A stretch of DNA of 25,703 nucleotides from the IMG/VR virus record IMGVR_UViG_3300027857_000468, positions 1 to 25,703 of that record, one strand, 5' to 3'. This DNA comes from a virus. The position numbers were made by a program, and so were the translations under genes. The notes under the pieces are model-generated. The model ran no database searches. It saw only the letters and a program-made list of their open reading frames with translations, and was not told the DNA's origin. Positions 5,503 to 19,751 of this stretch are shown piece by piece. How positions within the stretch are numbered: position 1 is the stretch's first letter; each line of letters begins with the position of its first letter.

Positions 5503-5871
5503 ATGATTGTCGATCCAATCGCAGTGGGGGCTCTCGTTTTGGGAGGAGCTTCACTCGCAGTTCACTTCCTTCATAAATCTACTCCGGGCCCCCAGGGTCC
5601 AGTCGGTTTGCAGGGGCACCCCGGGGTCGCAGGCCCGGCCGGGGCCACCGGGAGTCCGGGTAAGGATGGCGCGCCTGGAAAAGACGCCGCTCCGGCCAAG
5701 GACGGTAAGGATGGCGCCCCAGGTCGTGATGGGAAAGACGGTGTTGGTTTGAAGGGCGACAAAGGGGACAAAGGAGATCCTGGTGTCGGGATGAAGGGCG
5801 ACAAAGGGGACAAAGGGGACAAAGGGGACAAAGGGGACAAAGGGGACAAAGGGGATCCGGCTGGAAAATGA
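5503..5871 (+). CDS. Membrane-anchored collagen-like protein, 122 aa
   Basis: Start is the ATG at 5503 with GAGGAG 6 nt upstream; an in-frame upstream start at 5347 would overlap the preceding gene. Residues 5-23 are hydrophobic (IAVGALVLGGASLAVHFLH), a likely membrane anchor. From residue 29 the protein is almost all Gly-X-Y triplets, with brief breaks at AAPAKD (61-66) and after VG. It ends in a block of six GDK triplets. Gly-Asp-Lys and Gly-Pro-x triplets favour a trimeric collagen helix. Collagen-like segments are known in phage tail fibres and structural proteins; here the short length and membrane anchor are unusual. It overlaps the next gene (ATGA). Confidence 0.85.
   Translation: MIVDPIAVGALVLGGASLAVHFLHKSTPGPQGPVGLQGHPGVAGPAGATGSPGKDGAPGKDAAPAKDGKDGAPGRDGKDGVGLKGDKGDKGDPGVGMKGDKGDKGDKGDKGDKGDKGDPAGK
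5797..5850 (+). repeat. Six 9-bp tandem repeats coding Gly-Asp-Lys
   Basis: Six tandem 9-bp units, one GGCGACAAA followed by five identical GGGGACAAA, encode (Gly-Asp-Lys)6 in the collagen-like protein. A shorter copy of the same pattern lies at about 5752-5775. Identity at synonymous positions indicates recent slippage expansion, so copy number is likely to vary between isolates. Confidence 0.85.
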
Positions 5872-6191
5872 GTGAAGATTTTATTTCAGTTCGCGCAGCC
5901 GCGCTAGAGTTTGGCTTGCCAGAGAAATCCGCTGGAAAAGCCTTCTTTAAAATTCGCAAAAAGTTTCCTGAACTTTTAAAGAGAACTCGTCGTGGAAACT
6001 CGGGGCATTTATCGTGGTCTATTCCGGTCTCGGAAAATAAAACGATTTTTGAAAAACTTGGGTATGTTGCATTTGGCGGCTCAGTAGTTTCAGTTGAAAA
6101 ACCTCAGACGGAATCACATCGTTGGGAAAATGAATGCGCTTCCGAACTCAAGGCCCAAGGCTTTGAAACTCTAGTCGTTGCCGAAAAATGA
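5868..6191 (+). CDS. N-terminal part of a PD-(D/E)XK nuclease, ended by in-frame UGA
   Basis: This 107-aa product starts in an ATGA overlap with the collagen-like gene. Residues 1-55 (ISVRAAALEFGLPEKSAGKA, then FPELLKRTRRGNSGHLSW) look like a small DNA-binding domain. From about residue 87, WENECASELKAQGFETLVVAEK matches the first helix and strand of a PD-(D/E)XK nuclease fold. Translation then meets TGA at 6189-6191. The same frame stays open for 54 more codons and encodes the PD and E-x-K motifs. So this gene is either a broken nuclease or one completed by UGA readthrough. Its base composition is more AT-rich than the neighbours, suggesting separate acquisition. Confidence 0.7.
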   Translation: MSEDFISVRAAALEFGLPEKSAGKAFFKIRKKFPELLKRTRRGNSGHLSWSIPVSENKTIFEKLGYVAFGGSVVSVEKPQTESHRWENECASELKAQGFETLVVAEK

Positions 6192-6356
6192 ACTCCTGAC
6201 GTCATCGCTTTTCGCCAACGCCCGACCGGCGGTTTTGATTTGATTTTTGTAGAAGCAAAAGGCCCAGGTGATAGCTTGAGTAAGGAGCAATACGAGAAAA
6301 TTGAAAAACTCAAGGCTCTGGGCGTGGATGCTAAGATTCGTTGGTTCGAGGTCTAG
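6192..6356 (+). pseudogene. Downstream in-frame half of the nuclease (catalytic motifs)
   Basis: Directly after the TGA, in the same frame, the sequence encodes TPDVIAFRQRPTGGFDLIFV, then EAKGPGDSLSKEQYEKIEKL and ...VDAKIRWFEV before TAG. PD (residues 2-3 after the stop), FDLIFVEAK and the following Gln-Tyr helix are the catalytic signature of PD-(D/E)XK nucleases. There is no start codon or ribosome site of its own here. The segment is still free of other stops and well conserved in pattern, so the stop is recent, a sequence error, or translated through. Confidence 0.7.
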
Positions 6357-6357
6357 C

Positions 6358-6654
6358 GTGCCCGACCGCATCATAATTCGCGTCGAGCCTAGCTGCGGCG
6401 ACTTCTACGTTCGCGTCGCGGATCGCCGGTTAATCGGCTTTCCGCGCGCGGCCGACGCCGCGTTACTCGCCGAAAATTTGGCTGACGTTTTAAAGCGCCA
6501 CGGCGTCGACTTGACGTTTATTCCCGTGCCTTCGGCGATGCAGGAGCCGGCGATGACGGGCGGGCGCCTTGCGCCTCAAGCCCCAAAGCCTTTGAAGAAT
6601 CCCGGTGGTGGAATCTCGTCGAACTCTCAAGAAGCGGTAAAACACGCCCGATGA
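6358..6654 (+). CDS. Hypothetical protein, 98 aa
   Basis: I chose the GTG at 6358, one base after the TAG ending the nuclease frame; an upstream in-frame ATG at 6301 lies inside the nuclease frame. The first 60 residues form a compact domain with beta strands (DRIIIRVEPSCGDFYVRVAD), then AADAALLAENLADVLKRHGV. The tail is Pro/Gly/Ser-rich. No family is recognised. Its G+C-rich composition contrasts with the nuclease before it. It ends in an ATGA overlap. Confidence 0.6.
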   Translation: MPDRIIIRVEPSCGDFYVRVADRRLIGFPRAADAALLAENLADVLKRHGVDLTFIPVPSAMQEPAMTGGRLAPQAPKPLKNPGGGISSNSQEAVKHAR

Positions 6655-6989
6655 GTCGCCTTACGATAGCCGAGGCAATTGAGTCGCTGAAGAAGCCTGG
6701 CACAACGTACTCCGGGGCCGATTGGAAATTTTCTTGGCCGCACAAGTTTTACATCGGGAACGATCGGATATATAATGAACAGGTACTGAAGGAGTCGCAG
6801 CTCTTGCCTGCCTGGAATGAAGTCAGCCTAAAATTTTTTGGAATTACGTTTGAAATTCGCGAGGAAAAAATTTACTTCCGCTGTCCGTTTCGCGCAGGAC
6901 CCCTCGGGTATCAGCGCGCGGGAGTCGTTGGTGAGGACGGCCGGCCACGGCGGTGCGACACGTGGAGCGTAGACTATGGGGCGAATTAA
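6651..6989 (+). CDS. Hypothetical protein, 112 aa (possible Thoeris/MuF-like fold not assigned)
   Basis: The ATG overlaps the previous stop (ATGA). The N-terminus, MSRLTIAEAIESLKKPGTTY, is a likely helix. Aromatic-rich strands follow (DWKFSWPHKFYIGNDRIY, then SLKFFGITFEIREEKIYF). Two Cys (CPF and CDTW) lie near the end. I can name no family, and no particular fold is supported by sequence alone. The next small gene starts inside its last codons (14-nt overlap). Confidence 0.6.
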   Translation: MSRLTIAEAIESLKKPGTTYSGADWKFSWPHKFYIGNDRIYNEQVLKESQLLPAWNEVSLKFFGITFEIREEKIYFRCPFRAGPLGYQRAGVVGEDGRPRRCDTWSVDYGAN

Positions 6990-7607: not shown

Positions 7608-8226
7608 AATCTACATTATCGTACCTCATAACTTGAACGTCACTCGTGGCGGAAAGCCCATCAAGCTCAGCGTCACGAGTGGACGTGCGATGAGCTACGT
7701 GGCTCATGCGATGGCGTTGCTAACTGAAAGTTATAAAGTGCCGGGGCTAGTTGATTTAGACATCGTAGTATTAGCGATCGAAAATAACACCGACGTAGCC
7801 ACGGTTAATAATCCGGCGGGAATTTTAATTTTCCCTCGTGATCAATTTTTCTTTACCTACTACGATACGGATAGACTTTTTGACGGAGTGACTCTAGGCG
7901 CGGTTATCGCGGTCGTGCCTAAGGATCTTCGAATTGATTTGCCCGTTTGGAAGTGCGCTTGCAACGACAAGAAGAACTGGGCCGGTACGTCGGTGCTTAT
8001 CTCGCAGTATAATGACTTCGCCGGTACGTCGGCGTTGCGTCCGATTGAGTCGCCCAAAATCAGCGACGTCCCCATCGAGGGCCAACCCAAAATTTTATGC
8101 TCCCGTAGCTCAGCGTCAGAGCGCCTGGTATCTAACCAGGAGGCCGAGGCCGCAAGGCATGAGTCGCCAGACTCTGGTTCAAGTCCCTCCGGGAGCGCCA
8201 GTTTAGGACCGAGGTGCGTGGCGTGA
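7594..8226 (+). CDS. Hypothetical protein whose 3' end runs through a tRNA-like gene
   Basis: The start chosen is ATG 7594, after GAAATTGAAG; an in-frame TTG at 7573 also exists. Residues 1-125 look like a folded alpha/beta domain (KIYIIVPHNLNVTRGGKPI, GRAMSYVAHAMALLTESY, VDLDIVVLAIENNTDVATV, PAGILIFPRDQFFF). An AGTSV/AGTSA repeat follows (13-nt identical repeat at 7980 and 8021). The last 42 codons (from 8099) are simply the translation of a tRNA-like sequence. The frame stops at TGA 8224-8226, overlapping the GTG of the next gene, so the extension may really be translated. No family is recognised. Confidence 0.6.
   Translation: MSERKIYIIVPHNLNVTRGGKPIKLSVTSGRAMSYVAHAMALLTESYKVPGLVDLDIVVLAIENNTDVATVNNPAGILIFPRDQFFFTYYDTDRLFDGVTLGAVIAVVPKDLRIDLPVWKCACNDKKNWAGTSVLISQYNDFAGTSALRPIESPKISDVPIEGQPKILCSRSSASERLVSNQEAEAARHESPDSGSSPSGSASLGPRCVA
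8099..8200 (+). tRNA. Unusual tRNA-like gene, 102 nt, formally tRNA-Arg(TCT)
   Basis: Acceptor stem GCTCCCG (8099-8105) pairs perfectly with CGGGAGC (8190-8196), followed by G and an encoded CCA (8198-8200). D stem is GCTC/GAGC (8108-8111, 8119-8122). Anticodon stem is CCTGG/CCAGG (8124-8128, 8136-8140) with loop TATCTAA, so positions 34-36 read TCT. The T loop TTCAAGT (8178-8184) is followed by CCCTC. The matching 5' T strand, GAG or GAGG, lies at 8146-8149, with an extra 27 nt before the GG or G that completes it. Without those 27 nt the gene is a canonical 75-mer. Oddities are A at position 33 instead of U, and a D loop (AGCGTCA) without the usual GG. It may be degenerate, or require removal of the insert. 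Confidence 0.65.
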
Positions 8227-10999: not shown

Positions 11000-11014
11000 A
11001 GCCAGGAGGGCTCG

Positions 11015-11329
11015 ATGGCGAATAACTTAAACGTAGTTCCGATTTATATCGACACCGCTTTCGCGAGCTTTAAGGCGGTGGTAGCGGCGACGCTCGGAAC
11101 TCTGTTTACGCTCCGGGTGTACTCGGTACGGTGGGTCGGTCCCGCGGCGTCGGGCGACCAGGTAGTTATCGAGGACCCCCAAGGCGGTGAGCAGTTGCTT
11201 TTGATGCGGAATACTACGGCGAATGGCCCCGATTTGGTTGCGGATTGGTCGGCGGCTCCGAGATTGTGGCGCGACTTTGGGGTAGCGCAGATCTCCAGTG
11301 GGAAGTTGTTCATTGACGCGAGGATGTAA
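11015..11329 (+). CDS. Putative small virion protein, 104 aa
   Basis: The ATG at 11015 follows CAGGAGG at good spacing. The product is strand-rich (NLNVVPIYIDTAFASFKAVV, LFTLRVYSVRWVGPAASGDQ, GEQLLLMRNT, LWRDFGVAQISSGKLFIDAR), suggesting a small beta-sandwich. It abuts the next gene exactly (stop at 11329, ATG at 11330). Position and composition suggest a companion of the 181-aa protein before it. Function unknown. Confidence 0.6.
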   Translation: MANNLNVVPIYIDTAFASFKAVVAATLGTLFTLRVYSVRWVGPAASGDQVVIEDPQGGEQLLLMRNTTANGPDLVADWSAAPRLWRDFGVAQISSGKLFIDARM

Positions 11330-11641
11330 ATGAATTCTAAGATGAAGAGAGACGAAAAGGATCCGATGCCGATGGCGGATAATTCCTTCCGGGTTCCTCC
11401 GGATGGAAACTCCCCGGTAACGGGTGAGAAGCACGGGCAAGGTAAGGCGGAGCGCGTTAAGGGCTCCCAGCGTTTTACCGTTCGGACAGGCGGAGAGAAG
11501 CTGTTGCTCCGCACGAATGGTGACGGTAACACTCCGGTTTCGGGTGAGGACCATAACCAAGGAAAGTCCGAGTACGTCACGGCGTCACAACGCGGCGGGC
11601 AGAACACGAGCGGGAATACCGAAAACTCGCCGGGGAGATAA
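11330..11641 (+). CDS. Hypothetical protein with two 24-residue repeats, 103 aa
   Basis: Residues 25-48 and 65-88 are copies of one another. Both read DGN-[S/T]-PV-[T/S]-GE-x-H-x-QGK-x-E-x-V-x-x-SQR. The rest is hydrophilic and polar, with Gly/Asn/Ser-rich ends. The ATG directly follows the previous stop. The repeats have diverged at the DNA level, so the duplication is old. No family is recognised. Confidence 0.6.
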   Translation: MNSKMKRDEKDPMPMADNSFRVPPDGNSPVTGEKHGQGKAERVKGSQRFTVRTGGEKLLLRTNGDGNTPVSGEDHNQGKSEYVTASQRGGQNTSGNTENSPGR

Positions 11642-11644
11642 GCC

Positions 11645-11926
11645 GTGAAGGAAAAGCTTTCTCCTAAGGACGTTTTGAGCGGCGGGGGCGAAGGCAAGGA
11701 AAAATCCCCGAAGAAGAAAAAGCATAGCTACCGCCGGACGGAGATCGACCATCATGAAAATGGTTCGCATACCGTCCGGCACATCCCACGAAATGAAAAA
11801 ACTGAGGCAGGCTCGGAGTCCCCGAGCGACATGACATACGCCGTTAAGGACACGGACGAGCTGCACGACGGGATCGAAGAGCACCTGGGCGCTCCTAACG
11901 CTGCGGAGGAAAAGGCGGGAGTATGA
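11645..11926 (+). CDS. Hypothetical highly charged protein, 93 aa
   Basis: Start at GTG 11645, 4 nt after the previous stop. It begins with Lys-rich sequence (GEGKEKSPKKKKHSYRRTEI), passes through a His-rich strand pair (DHHENGSHTVRHIPRNE) and ends in an acidic stretch (DTDELHDGIEEHLGAP). The His-rich hairpin resembles short motifs of small phage head-region proteins. No function is assigned. It ends in an ATGA overlap. Confidence 0.55.
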   Translation: MKEKLSPKDVLSGGGEGKEKSPKKKKHSYRRTEIDHHENGSHTVRHIPRNEKTEAGSESPSDMTYAVKDTDELHDGIEEHLGAPNAAEEKAGV

Positions 11927-12162: not shown

Positions 12163-13928
12163 ACATCGATACCTCAAACCTTGATAACCTGAATTTTCGC
12201 TTGAGCCTTCGCGATATTCAACAGTTGTCGAGCTCAGATAGGGATGACCTTCGGCGAGAGTGCCAAACCAACTTACGCTTTTTGGTTAATTGCATCCTGC
12301 GCCCAGCCCGGAAGTTTTCGTCGTTAATCGAACGAGTTCATGGCCCGATTATCGACGGCTTTCTTCGACCGAATCCTGATTTGCTGTACGATCAATGGAG
12401 CCCGATTAAGGAACGCGTCGTCCTAGCCTTTCGTGGTGCGTTGAAGTCGACGATAACGGGTGGATTTTTGGTGCAGGTTCAGCTCTGCGAGCCTGATATC
12501 CGTATCTTAGTTATGTCGGGTAAGTTGGGGCATGCTAAGACGATACTTGCGCTGGGCTGCCGGCCGTTTGCGTCGAACGAAGTTTTACGGGAGCTTTTTC
12601 CAGAGTGGGGCGTCGAGCCGGAGGAGTTGTCGAGCGAGTATTTTATCTCGCCTCGCCGAGACCCAGGCTTGGATTTAAGGGACCCTACGCTGTCGATCGG
12701 TACGTTTGACTCGGTAAAGGCTGGTGGGCACTTCGAGTTGGTACTTCTCGACGATTGCACCAACGAGATAAATTGCGCCACGCCGGAGTTGGTCGAGAAA
12801 AACGAGCAGTCGTACGACGATATTTTCGAGCTCGTCGAGCCAGGCGGGTATCGGCATTTTAACGGAACCCGTTGGGCGCCGGATGATTCAGACCTGCCGG
12901 AGGTAATTCGTCGTCGTGGCGAGGAGATGGCGGCGGATAACAACGGGGAGCAAAGCGTATCGTACGTGTCGGTCCCCGTTTGGAATATCAGAACCGATGG
13001 GACGTACGACGAACAGAAGGCTCGAGCGGAACGGGATCGTCGAAACGGACTTCATCCCGATGATGTTAATTTGACCTGGCCGGAGAAGTTGAGCTCCCGG
13101 TTTTTGTGGCCGAAGTACCGGGCGAATCCGACCAAGTTTTTGCGGCAGTATCTCCTTCGTTACAAGAGCACCATTTCGTCGGAGGCTTTTACTCGAGACC
13201 TTTTGATGCAGAACACCCGGCCGTTCGCGGACGGGATGCCGTTACCACACGACCGGTTTACGGTTTTGAATTGGGACCTAGGCGATGTTTGGAGCGGCCG
13301 AAGGAGTAAGAATTCGTCGGATATGTCGTGTGGAATGGCGGTCACTTTTGAGTTGAGCACTCGGCGGATGTTTATTTACGACGCGATGCTCGAGGTATTT
13401 AGCTCGTCGACCGATATGGCGACGGCCATCGTCGAGTTTTATTGCCGGCAGTTGCACATCGGGCCGGTCGATATTTACGCTATCGAGGATGAGCACGGGG
13501 CTAGGAAGCTCGAGGGGGAGATTAAGGCCATCGCCCGAAAGATGGGCGTTAACTTTGAAATTTTTTGGCGTATCCGCGAGAGGGTGAAGGACGTAAAGAA
13601 TATCGAAATCGCCAAGTTGGCCGGAGCGATGAAACACGGTTTGGTTCAATTCTCGACGGTCATGCCTTTTCGCGACGAGATTTTTAGGATGTTTGAGAAG
13701 TGGTCCCCCCAGAACGTTCGGGTTAAGGATGACGGCCCTGATTGCGCATCGCAAATTTGGAACGAATTTTCAGAGCAGATTTTTCCAGGAACGATTATAA
13801 ACATGAGACCGAGCGATCAGGTCTACGTTCCTGAACCGATGGCGGAGCCGGAGTTTGACCCGCATCAGGATGAACGCGAAAACGCGGATATAAATTTGTT
13901 AGCAGGTATGACGGTGGCGCATAGTTAA
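12159..13928 (+). CDS. terL: Terminase large subunit (DNA packaging ATPase-nuclease)
   Basis: This 589-aa protein is the motor that drives DNA into the prohead and cuts the concatemer. The ATPase domain shows a divergent Walker A, FRGALKST (residues 91-98), and a Walker B, LVLLDDCTN (194-202). The C-terminal nuclease has the first acidic strand NWDLGD (about residue 370) and later acidic residues (AIEDEHG). The length suits the family. It starts at GTG in a GTGA overlap with the small gene before it, and its TAA overlaps the portal ATG (TAATG). No separate small terminase subunit is recognised; one of the charged genes upstream might serve. Confidence 0.92.
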   Translation: MNIDTSNLDNLNFRLSLRDIQQLSSSDRDDLRRECQTNLRFLVNCILRPARKFSSLIERVHGPIIDGFLRPNPDLLYDQWSPIKERVVLAFRGALKSTITGGFLVQVQLCEPDIRILVMSGKLGHAKTILALGCRPFASNEVLRELFPEWGVEPEELSSEYFISPRRDPGLDLRDPTLSIGTFDSVKAGGHFELVLLDDCTNEINCATPELVEKNEQSYDDIFELVEPGGYRHFNGTRWAPDDSDLPEVIRRRGEEMAADNNGEQSVSYVSVPVWNIRTDGTYDEQKARAERDRRNGLHPDDVNLTWPEKLSSRFLWPKYRANPTKFLRQYLLRYKSTISSEAFTRDLLMQNTRPFADGMPLPHDRFTVLNWDLGDVWSGRRSKNSSDMSCGMAVTFELSTRRMFIYDAMLEVFSSSTDMATAIVEFYCRQLHIGPVDIYAIEDEHGARKLEGEIKAIARKMGVNFEIFWRIRERVKDVKNIEIAKLAGAMKHGLVQFSTVMPFRDEIFRMFEKWSPQNVRVKDDGPDCASQIWNEFSEQIFPGTIINMRPSDQVYVPEPMAEPEFDPHQDERENADINLLAGMTVAHS

Positions 13929-16018
13929 TGCTTCTTCCTCAACCTAATAATATTGCCCAGCCCCTGAATCAGAAGACTCAGGATTTTTTCCTGTCCACGG
14001 GTAAGGTTAAGACCGACGATTCAGCTTTAGCTTTGGTCATTCAAGATACACAGCGCGCTGAGAAGTTTGTGATGGCGCGGCTTTGGATTAGCGAGTGGCG
14101 GATCGCGAAGTCAATTTACGAGGCTCCGGTCAAGCAGGAATTTTGGCGTGACACGCTCGTCCCCAGGGCGAGTAACTCGTATCCGCTTTGTGCGCAGCAT
14201 ATTCGGGCGATACTCGATCAGGTTATGCCGGCGTTGTTCCCCGAAAATCCTCCGTTTCAGGTAGAGCCGAACGAAGGTACGCCGCGCCAGGTGGCCCGTG
14301 GTTGGGAGTCGGTACTTAGCTACCAGTTGCGCAAGGCTGGGTTTCGGGGCCAGATTCGCTTAATCGCGAAGGACGGCGAAATTTTTGGGACGGGAATTGG
14401 GAAGTGGGGATGGGAGTGGTTTAACCGAAAGCTTCTCACCTATCGCCGCAGGGTAGCCCCGAAGAAGATTAAAACGGCGACCGGTAAGATCATGGTGTTA
14501 CATACCGCGGAGTCGGACGACCTCGAGGAGGTCGAGGTTTCGATTAAGGTGTCGCAGCCTTTCTTTCATCGTTGCGAGGTGAATCACACGATGGTCGCGC
14601 CTGGCTTGCGAGAGCCTGATATTCGAAAGGCGAAGTTCGTTTCCTATCGTGATTACCTCACCATCCGCGATCTCAACGATCTTCGCGACGCTGAGGGCTA
14701 CGATATTCCGGCTCAGGCAGATCTAATCGCGTTGGCCGCACCGCCGTCGGAGCAGCCCGTTTCTGGCCCGATCGAGAGTGAGGCAACGGCGTTTCCCGCC
14801 CAAGGCCATCGGCCGCTTCCACGTTACATGGATGAGTCGGAGGATCCGCTCGAACACAAGCTTGAGGTTATCGAATATTGGACGAATGAACGGGTAATCG
14901 TCGCGCTCCAACGGAAGAAGATAATTAGGAACGAGAGTAATCCCTTCGGAATAATTCCGTTCGTTAACGCGTTCTGGGACGATATTCCGGGCTCGTTTTA
15001 CGCCTTTGGAATCCCACGTCGGTTGGGCGGAACGCAAACGCACATTCAGGGTCTACGTAACCTTCGTCTTGACGACGTGAATATAAATCTTCAAAACGTA
15101 TGGTTGGAGAAACAAGGCACTAATCTCACGGGTCAGCCGATGAAGCTTTACCCCGGCGCTCGTATCAAGGTTACCGACCCGGATGGGATTAAGCCGCTCA
15201 TGAAACAACCCATTCTGGGCGAGGCCTGGCGCGAGGAGAGCGTGCTGGTGGCCGATGCGGAGAAGACGAGCGGCGCTAACGAGCTCCTTATTCAGGGGGC
15301 GATGCCGCCGCAAGGTCGTAGCTCGATTACGCGGTCGGCGACCGGTGCGGGTTTGATGGGCGGTGCGTCGAGCTCGAGAATTCAATCGTACGTCGACGTC
15401 ATCGTCGATCAGATATTTTTGCCCGTTTTATACGCTTTCCTGCACATGAACCGGATGTGGCTGGAACCGGCTGAGATCCGAAAGATAATCGGTAAGACGC
15501 TCTGGGAGTCTCTCGAGGAAGCCCACGAGGGTGACCTGTTAATTGACATGTGCAATAGTGCCGACCTCGAGCTTACGATGTCAGCCGGAACGAGTATTGC
15601 CGCCCGCAGACAGATGGGCCAGATGCTGCCGCTGGAGATGCAGATGTACATGCAGCCCGCGGTACAGTCGGGCCTGGCTGATTCTCGCAAGAAGGTTAAT
15701 TGGCTAGAATTGTCTCGTCGCGTGGAGCAAGTGTCGGGTTGGAGAAGTCAGGACGATATAATCATCGACTTGACCGATGAGGATATTCAACATCGCATGG
15801 CGATGAATCCTGACGTCATAAAGGCGCAAGCGACTAGTCAGCGTATTGGGCAGTTGCACAAGCAGAACAAGGACCTCTCGGCGCAGGAGCACCAACATAA
15901 GCTCGAGGAGATTGACGCCAAGGGCCTGGCCGGTTCAGGTCAGGAGATTATCACCCGGGCGATCGAACGCGCGGCGCAGCGCGATGAGATTAACGAGATA
16001 GCGGGTACGTTCGCATGA
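13928..16018 (+). CDS. Portal protein, 696 aa
   Basis: The portal forms the dodecameric ring at one capsid vertex through which DNA passes. The block at residues about 310-395 (IEYWTNERVIVALQRKKIIR, GIIPFVNAFWDDIPGSFYAF, GTQTHIQGLRNLRLDDVNIN) is the typical portal region: Tyr-Trp, then the PG-x-FY-G turn, then the Gln-helix. The C-terminal 90 residues are helical and Gln/His-rich (QRIGQLHKQNKDLSAQEHQH), like a portal barrel. Its size (about 700 aa) is typical of podovirus-type portals. It lies directly after terminase and shares an ATGA overlap with the next gene. Confidence 0.9.
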   Translation: MLLPQPNNIAQPLNQKTQDFFLSTGKVKTDDSALALVIQDTQRAEKFVMARLWISEWRIAKSIYEAPVKQEFWRDTLVPRASNSYPLCAQHIRAILDQVMPALFPENPPFQVEPNEGTPRQVARGWESVLSYQLRKAGFRGQIRLIAKDGEIFGTGIGKWGWEWFNRKLLTYRRRVAPKKIKTATGKIMVLHTAESDDLEEVEVSIKVSQPFFHRCEVNHTMVAPGLREPDIRKAKFVSYRDYLTIRDLNDLRDAEGYDIPAQADLIALAAPPSEQPVSGPIESEATAFPAQGHRPLPRYMDESEDPLEHKLEVIEYWTNERVIVALQRKKIIRNESNPFGIIPFVNAFWDDIPGSFYAFGIPRRLGGTQTHIQGLRNLRLDDVNINLQNVWLEKQGTNLTGQPMKLYPGARIKVTDPDGIKPLMKQPILGEAWREESVLVADAEKTSGANELLIQGAMPPQGRSSITRSATGAGLMGGASSSRIQSYVDVIVDQIFLPVLYAFLHMNRMWLEPAEIRKIIGKTLWESLEEAHEGDLLIDMCNSADLELTMSAGTSIAARRQMGQMLPLEMQMYMQPAVQSGLADSRKKVNWLELSRRVEQVSGWRSQDDIIIDLTDEDIQHRMAMNPDVIKAQATSQRIGQLHKQNKDLSAQEHQHKLEEIDAKGLAGSGQEIITRAIERAAQRDEINEIAGTFA

Positions 16019-17711: not shown

Positions 17712-18620
17712 ATGCCTAGCAATTCTGCGGCATCCTTTGTCATCGGCTCTTCTCTTCCCTCGACTCAGGCGGTCTATTACGATCGCCTGGCGGTTCGGTC
17801 CTTGTTCGCCCATTTGGGCTTTCAAGGCCTGACGGCGGAACGGCAGATTCCGAAGAACGCTGGTCGTACGACTCAGATTTACACGTACAACCTCGCGCCG
17901 TTTACGGCGAGCGTCTCGGCTGCAGGTTCGGCTGCGGGCGGTAACGTCGTTGATGTTCCGCCTCCGACCGCGACGGAAGGAACCGTGGGCACGCCGATCG
18001 TGCCGACAGAAGCTTCGATTCAAGCGACGCTCGGACAGTACGTCGATTACGTCAATGTTTCGGACTTCGCGTTGGCAGTTGATATCGGTAAGCCTCTCGA
18101 ACAACTCTCAGAAATGTTGGGGTATCGAGGTGCTCTCGTTGTCGACACGTTGATTCAGCAAGGTTATGATGCGGCTGTTTCAACCGACTCGACGGCAAGC
18201 GTTCAGGTTCCCGATGGATCGTTCGTTACCCGTGCCGTTCTTCAGACCGCGGTAGCGACGATTCGGGGCAAGAATGGTCGTCCTTTCCCAGGCGGCCGCC
18301 ATCGTGGTATAATGCATCCGTATATCCTTTCGGATATTGCGAATGATTTGACCGCGAATGGAGTTCTTGACACAGAGAAGTATACGCGTGAAGGACAGAA
18401 GTGGATCGAGGCTGGACTGGCGGAAGATAATGAGATCATTCCAATTGCTGGAATCGATTTTGTGATGTCGACCAACGTCCCCCTCGTAGCGAACTTGCCC
18501 GCTTCCGGTAAGTCGTCTTACGCGACGTATGTATCAGCCGATGAAATGATGTTCTCGATTGCGTTAGGTGGTTTTGAAGATGTTCCTGATGAAAGTAACT
18601 TTATTAATTTGAAGCCTCAT
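17712..18620 (+). CDS. Major capsid protein, exon 1 (N4-gp56-like)
   Basis: This encodes the first 303 residues of the major capsid protein. The opening (AVYYDRLAVRSLFAHLGFQG, then ERQIPKNAGRTTQIYTYN) matches the N-arm of N4-gp56-type HK97-fold capsids, and EASIQATLGQYVDYVNVSD and HPYILSDIANDL follow as expected. The unspliced frame runs on to TGA 18651-18653, adding an unlikely tail (GVEAVMENFL). A group I intron 5' splice site is predicted after the His codon CAT (18618-18620), so exon 1 ends ...NLKPH in phase 0. No strong ribosome site precedes ATG 17712; GGTGA at 17700 may serve. The remaining C-terminus lies in two further exons downstream. Confidence 0.85.
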
Positions 18621-19509
18621 GGTGTTGAAGCCGTGATGGAAAATTTTCTCTGATTGACTCGGACCCTGAGATGGGAACGAGGCGCAAGGAGCGGTTTTTA
18701 AATGACGCACATTAGCATTGGCCAACAGTTTGGAAAATTAACGGCGGTCGAAGAAGCCTCTGGAAATTCTTCTAAGTGTTGTTGCCAATGTGAATGCGGC
18801 GCTATTAAAAAATACAATGTTAAAAATCTATTAAGAGGAAACACAAAAAGTTGTGGATGTTCTCGAAAAACTCCATGGAACTCTCGTGATTTGAGAGGAA
18901 AAAGGTTTGGTCGTCTTACGGTTATTGGAAATTCTTTCCGCGAGGGTGATCATCGCCGTTGGCCTTGTTTATGCGACTGTGGAAATGAGTTGAGTGTTAA
19001 AACCGCTAAACTCATCAACGGGCATACTCAAAGCTGTGGATGCAAACAACGAGATTCGGTAGTAAAGAAAAACCACGAATCTACAAAAAGATCCGATGCG
19101 TACTGGTTTCTTTACGCCGCAAAAAGAAGGGCGATACAAAAAGGGTTAGAGTTTACGTTGTCCGAAAACGATCTCGGAATCGTAATACCTAGCCGTTGTC
19201 CCCTTCTCGACATTCCAATTTTTCGCAGTAAAGGCGGGTTTTCACCTAATAGTCCGTCTCTTGATCGAATAGACTCGGCTAAGGGCTATATTCCCGGTAA
19301 CGTTTGGGTTATAAGCAATCGAGCTAATCTTATCAAGAGGGACGCTACGGCAGAAGAACTTAATCTGCTCGTTACGAATTTTAACCGGCTTCAGCGTGAG
19401 AGACTGAGCGAGAAAACGCCCAGGGTGGGCGATGCAACAGTCCGTTCTTGCGGAAATACAACTGCAAGGGCCAGTAATGGCTTGTCGGAAACGACATCTA
19501 ACAATCAAG
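18621..19509 (+). ncRNA. Group I intron 1 (contains HNH homing endonuclease)
   Basis: P1 can be drawn as exon UCAU|GGU against GCCGUGA, 7 pairs with the expected U.G at the splice point (18620/18621). P3 pairs TTCTC (18646-18650) with GAGAA (19410-19414). P7 pairs GACTG (19402-19406) with CAGTC (19438-19442). P8 is CGCCC-AGGGT-GGGCG (19417-19431). P9 is CTTGC/GCAAG, and a GTCG-GAAA-CGAC hairpin follows. The 3' end is placed after AATCAAG (G19509) by alignment with intron 2; G19479 and G19515 also keep the reading frame. The endonuclease gene sits in the loop before P3'/P7. Confidence 0.8.
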
Positions 19510-19751
19510 AAAGCGAACATCTATCAATTTGCCCCGAACGCGTTCGACCCTTTTCCTCACCGCTAGGGGCCGTAAAACCTTCTCTGATTGACTCGAACGC
19601 TGAGATGCCAACGAGGCGGAAAGCTGAAAGTAGCTGCCGTGAGAGACTGAGCGAGAAGGCGCCTGAAAAGGTGATGCAACAGTCCGATCCCATAGAAAAT
19701 AAACTGTGGGAGCTAGACAGAAATGATCTGGCCTGCTATTTATGGCAGTAA
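18702..19751 (+). CDS. HNH homing endonuclease in group I intron
   Basis: The start is ATG 18702 with AAGGAG upstream, inside intron 1. Two repeats of a short Cys-rich module lie at about residues 6-53 and 68-114 (VIG-x-GR-x-W-x-C-x-CDCG, ending SCGC). They are typical DNA-binding parts of phage HNH enzymes. The HNH nuclease core is at about 165-215 (SRCPLLDIPI, then SLDRIDSAKGYIPGNVWVIS and NRANLIKRDAT). The enzyme would cut intron-less alleles to spread the intron. The recognisable protein ends near residue 230, just where the ribozyme core begins. The frame nevertheless stays open through the core, the micro-exon and most of intron 2 to TAA 19749-19751, so the last 120 residues may be a chance extension. 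Confidence 0.88.
   Translation: MTHISIGQQFGKLTAVEEASGNSSKCCCQCECGAIKKYNVKNLLRGNTKSCGCSRKTPWNSRDLRGKRFGRLTVIGNSFREGDHRRWPCLCDCGNELSVKTAKLINGHTQSCGCKQRDSVVKKNHESTKRSDAYWFLYAAKRRAIQKGLEFTLSENDLGIVIPSRCPLLDIPIFRSKGGFSPNSPSLDRIDSAKGYIPGNVWVISNRANLIKRDATAEELNLLVTNFNRLQRERLSEKTPRVGDATVRSCGNTTARASNGLSETTSNNQESEHLSICPERVRPFSSPLGAVKPSLIDSNAEMPTRRKAESSCRERLSEKAPEKVMQQSDPIENKLWELDRNDLACYLWQ
19510..19551 (+). CDS. Major capsid protein, micro-exon 2
   Basis: These 14 codons (KANIYQFAPNAFDP) continue the capsid frame in phase 0 from exon 1. They are bounded upstream by the intron 1 end (AATCAAG) and downstream by the intron 2 P1, in which exon CCCU can pair with GGGG (the next bases, U and A, pair too). 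A 5' splice site three bases later (after TTT, adding Phe) is possible. The sequence NAFDP suits the segment before the conserved C-terminal block of this capsid family. The exact borders are uncertain by several codons. Confidence 0.6.

Follow-up and report, generated by a model that had tools for sequence, protein, structure and literature searches.

An in-frame TGA divides a VRR-NUC nuclease gene of a phage and probably marks its recent inactivation

In one viral metagenome record, a reading frame that leads towards a nuclease is interrupted by a TGA and then carries on, in the same frame, into the catalytic motifs. Is this stop codon part of the way the gene is used, or does it mark the loss of the gene? 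The window analysed here comprises all 25,703 bases of an IMG/VR virus record, a single metagenome contig that is perhaps a fragment of its virus, and it also encodes a terminase, a portal-like gene ('head-tail adaptor', phrog_332) and a major head gene. The frame at 5868-6356 opens with an ATG at 5868 and reads 107 residues, the TGA at 6189-6191, 54 residues and a TAG at 6354-6356 (Table 1). The TGA is the sole stop inside this frame and is followed by an A, and the PD (6195-6200) and E-A-K (E-x-K; 6252-6260) motifs both lie only 3' of it. Our read-out of the frame agrees with the initial annotation on the position of the stop and on the intactness of the rest.

Table 1 Features at and around the interrupted nuclease frame
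Feature	Position	Strand	Description
N-terminal half, 107 aa	5868..6188	+	predicted HTH-like part, alpha1 and beta1
In-frame TGA, codon before T-P-D	6189..6191	+	between predicted beta1 and beta2
C-terminal half, 54 aa and TAG	6192..6356	+	VRR_NUC part, PF08774 match
Upstream gene, collagen-like repeats	5503..5871	+	PF01391, E 2.6e-11
Downstream gene, GTG start	6358..6654	+	one base past the nuclease TAG; without Pfam match

The two halves occupy the place of a single gene. Because both sides of the TGA lie in the same frame, a single substitution suffices to produce the interruption, which a single indel does not. The ATG of the nuclease frame overlaps the stop of the collagen-like gene (ATGA, 5868-5871), and GTG 6358, directly downstream of the frame, opens the next gene, so that 5868-6356 fills the space of one gene. 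The collagen-like ORF is listed from 5347, with GAGGAG preceding its ATG at 5503, and a GAGG stands a few bases 5' of GTG 6358, within the last codons of the nuclease frame. The 54 stop-free codons after the TGA have a chance probability of about 0.05 given the local composition, a weak indication when taken alone, and the codon score of this half is reached by just 2 of 2,000 shuffles. A scan for same-frame segments split by one stop, compared by coordinates, returned nine pairs in the window, the other eight being mostly neighbouring listed ORFs with start codons of their own. Two further routes to a product from the downstream half were considered and rejected: separate translation would have no in-frame ATG, the first ATG, GTG or TTG being a TTG at 6240, after the PD, and for a frameshift in place of readthrough the -1 frame closes after 3 residues and the +1 frame after 17.

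By family, the C-terminal half is a VRR-NUC nuclease domain. It matches VRR_NUC (PF08774) with an E-value of 9.7e-8 and 32.5 bits against a curated cut-off of 23.8, which upholds the earlier identification of a PD-(D/E)XK nuclease and narrows it to the VRR-NUC family; phrog_824 and phrog_93 are matched weakly. A profile search at the DNA level found one VRR_NUC match at 6168-6335 that runs through the TGA (31.8 bits, one stop inside), and since no more than about 7 residues ahead of the stop fall within it, the continuity given by the profile alone is modest. When the PD and EAK motifs were aligned with those of four relatives, the P, D, E and K were invariant.

The N-terminal half alone has no family match in Pfam and PHROG searches. 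AlphaFold2, run on the single sequence of the read-through frame (mean pLDDT 62), models residues 1-65 fairly confidently as winged-helix/HTH-like, with pLDDT of 64-90 in blocks over residues 1-70, and on this model the half is predicted to be an HTH-like DNA-binding part; Foldseek structure searches returned no match at E<=0.001. The rest of the model, at low confidence, has a helix at 82-96, strands at 99-103, 112-117 and 123-128, and a helix at 139-150, which matches the alpha-beta-beta-beta-alpha order described for the VRR-NUC family (PMC9635880). The TGA, which takes the place of residue 108, separates the first strand of this predicted core from the second (beta1 from beta2), and neither half alone should therefore be a nuclease. 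As written, the frame ends after beta1 and does not carry the VRR-NUC core (alpha1-beta1-beta2-beta3-alpha2-beta4) in one polypeptide; the core order appears solely when the frame is modelled as read through, and the C-terminal part of that model has low confidence. The gene thus resembles the VRR-NUC family in a C-terminal half above the cut-off, in its PD and E-x-K, and in the predicted order of elements across the stop, whereas the in-frame TGA before the PD, the extra N-terminal HTH-like part and the remoteness of all its relatives set it apart.

We consider it likely that an accessory phage gene for an HTH and VRR-NUC protein has been inactivated here by one recent nonsense substitution, a plain account with which all the observations agree. 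Ribosomes would stop at TGA 6189 and release a fragment of 107 residues comprising the HTH-like part, alpha1 and beta1. The fragment would lack the catalytic D, E and K, which are lost because translation would end with beta1 of the predicted core, ahead of beta2, and no active nuclease would be made; the downstream half would still look intact because the mutation is young. On this reading, the good state of the downstream half reflects how young the mutation is and not that the half is in use, and intact catalytic residues after the stop are also expected under functional readthrough. A simple nonsense mutation had been named in the initial annotation as the plain alternative, and it gains support from the lone stop, the intact remainder and a search that found no recoding signals. 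The searches turned up neither a close homologue nor another copy of the locus, and we infer that the substitution is recent, that the nuclease gene is dispensable and that the substitution is present in the phage population.

The last of these points would fail if the TGA had arisen in sequencing or assembly, or if a minority variant had entered the consensus, with the gene intact in most of the population. An error could be expected to leave just such a picture, one substituted base and an undamaged sequence behind it, and the site is covered by a single IMG/VR record, no second record over the nuclease having been found. An error would, however, have to be a substitution rather than an indel in a homopolymer, the usual fault of assemblies, and the other listed genes of the window read cleanly. 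We regard this explanation as unlikely.

A different possibility is that the stop is passed. Programmed or basal UGA readthrough would yield a little full-length nuclease, gating the dose of a toxic enzyme, with the 107-residue HTH-like fragment as the main product; the frame, the catalytic motifs and the coding signature, all intact past the stop, would agree with this. The initial annotation had further suggested that UGA might be read as Trp. Among nine relatives with a readable motif, the residue at the stop column is Gly in five (L163, L164, L166, L167, L168), Ser in three (L003, L004, L006) and Lys in one (L002), so that neither Trp nor a stop occurs at this column in any of the nine, all of them remote. 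The motif scan took in 11 loci, nine of which entered the column count; L161 was dropped as a chance match and L165 because its motif was not located, and a second, unrelated ORF with a PD in L168 was also excluded. The column lends nothing to the Trp reading and, as far as such remote relatives can tell, counts against readthrough; their remoteness means that it speaks to the column rather than to the gene's own history.

Signals for recoding were sought in the surrounding sequence. TGA ends 19 of 35 other listed ORFs (a comparison list of our own choosing), seven of the 35 as TGAA, the portal gene (13928-16018) among these seven, which argues against readthrough at this tetranucleotide. With TGA a normal stop and no tRNA with a TCA anticodon found in the window or the scanned loci, we reject genome-wide recoding of UGA to Trp, as the initial annotation had done from TGA usage. 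The 100-base stretch starting at the codon before the TGA gave no sign of a structure 3' of the stop (z 0.13; 106 of 200 shuffles fold as well), and an Rfam scan of the window returned no recoding element, the selenocysteine element included. No UGA-reading tRNA was found in the window or in the 18 scanned loci of relatives, ARAGORN found no suppressor tRNA in the window, and the 29 tRNAs of the relative G018 include no TCA, CTA or TTA anticodon. The one tRNA-like gene that Rfam places in the window (8099-8197) was rejected as a UGA reader, its anticodon loop, TATCTAA, being centred on TCT (Arg). Bacterial Trp tRNAs with a 4-bp stem that read UGA have been reported (PMC13092985).

Known cases of stop-codon reading resemble this one in part. 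Phages with alternative codes, in which stop codons are recoded, likewise have an in-frame stop codon within a gene, but the present record uses TGA routinely to end genes, and the searches found no suppressor tRNA. In E. coli K-12, UGA readthrough has been shown for nudL and pheL, where, as here, the UGA is followed by an open frame (PMC5373646), a precedent that favours readthrough. That work has western blots and the weak RF2 of K-12 behind it, whereas the present case is one of sequence with no recoding signal found. Furthermore, its authors tie the leakiness of UGA in E. coli, which the initial annotation had cited, largely to the weak K-12 RF2 variant and describe UGAA as likely to signal rapid termination with the other RF2 (PMC5373646), which counts against readthrough at a TGAA. 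Our literature search found no paper joining a phage nuclease gene with UGA stop codon readthrough.

With no Trp at the column, TGAA serving as an ordinary stop, and neither a stimulatory structure nor a suppressor tRNA found, the readthrough-gated nuclease of the initial annotation loses its footing, and we judge programmed or basal readthrough very improbable. We give still less credence to its fuller form, in which the in-frame UGA would keep a DNA-binding VRR-NUC nuclease off, the enzyme being made by rare readthrough and perhaps repressed, or competed with, by the short DNA-binding fragment. Were readthrough true, the stop would act at translation as a safety catch on the nuclease of a phage. 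On the present evidence, the locus is better read as a phage accessory nuclease seen shortly after it was inactivated, and it illustrates that a frame left open beyond a stop speaks for recoding only when homologues have the stop as well.

The distribution of the gene bears on the nonsense substitution that we favour, since that reading takes the nuclease to be accessory. Viral contigs scanned with the whole frame, with its halves and with a degenerate pattern round the stop yielded one remote record only, found twice, and the nearest homologue found is L002, with 38% identity over 51 residues. Genome contigs and 8 further individual genomes gave no match, and phages and plasmids nothing close. 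There was 1 weak match in the phylum of G020 (396 genomes) and there were 3 in the phylum of G025 (398 genomes); the weak matches L160, L161 and L162 look like chance and were set aside, while L163 has a real VRR motif. A search with the major head protein retrieved 18 related IMG/VR records, and none of the 18, many of them fragments (9-56 kb) that need not reach the region, has a nuclease match at E<=1. G001 carries a homologue (56% identity) of the neighbour at 6651-6989, with the local gene order rearranged, and beside it, in the place of the nuclease, another ORF of 84 residues. The GC content is 0.43 in the N-terminal half (GC3 0.34) and 0.48 in the C-terminal half, against 0.533 for the window. 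The nuclease gene looks foreign and accessory, and is probably a recent acquisition. Its low GC and the lack of a match in the 18 records are circumstantial pointers to a possible free-standing homing endonuclease, which would move into nuclease-free relatives at a defined target site.

Selection might also have settled on the truncated product, the 107-residue protein having been domesticated as an HTH DNA-binding protein that has lost its nuclease. The HTH-like part is the best-predicted region of the model, and phage HTH proteins stand out among the weak Foldseek matches in the viral library, both of which would suit such a role. The fragment nevertheless still carries alpha1 and beta1 as a tail of no apparent use, the nuclease half is undecayed, and the searches found no homologue of the N-terminal half alone. 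We think this quite improbable.

Several other features of the window and its relatives were observed. The tRNA-like gene, with its encoded CCA, spans 8099-8201 (Rfam, 39.6 bits) and was missed by ARAGORN; besides its TCT (Arg) anticodon it has an A at position 33 and a shortened D-loop, and its T-stem looks perfect only when a stretch of 27 bases (8150-8176), which contains a hairpin, is taken as an insert. Its 3' end shares 24 of 25 bases with tRNA-Arg(ACG) genes in two genomes of the G020 phylum. The 29 tRNA genes of G018 form an array (L027, 11881-16176) that is a nearly full set with no stop suppressor.

The major head genes of relatives (L016, L017, L022 and L018-L021) are broken at two places by inserts of about 0.7-1.5 kb, the equivalent sites in the window being at about 17883-17890 and at 18318; in L022 the gene resumes after the first break only at about 18048. 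L018 has an Rfam group I intron at 11550-11759, just past the resumed head gene. Just 3' of the window's own major head gene lies the other clearly low-GC ORF (18702-19751; GC 0.45), which has no Pfam match and is missing at that place in several relatives. Similar segments on both sides of it, 18641-18689 and 19581-19738, both match L007 at about 11005-11170, and the ORF looks like a mobile insert. Towards the end of this phage record, 21280-25608 holds a run of glycosyltransferase, FkbM methyltransferase and NAD-dependent epimerase genes.
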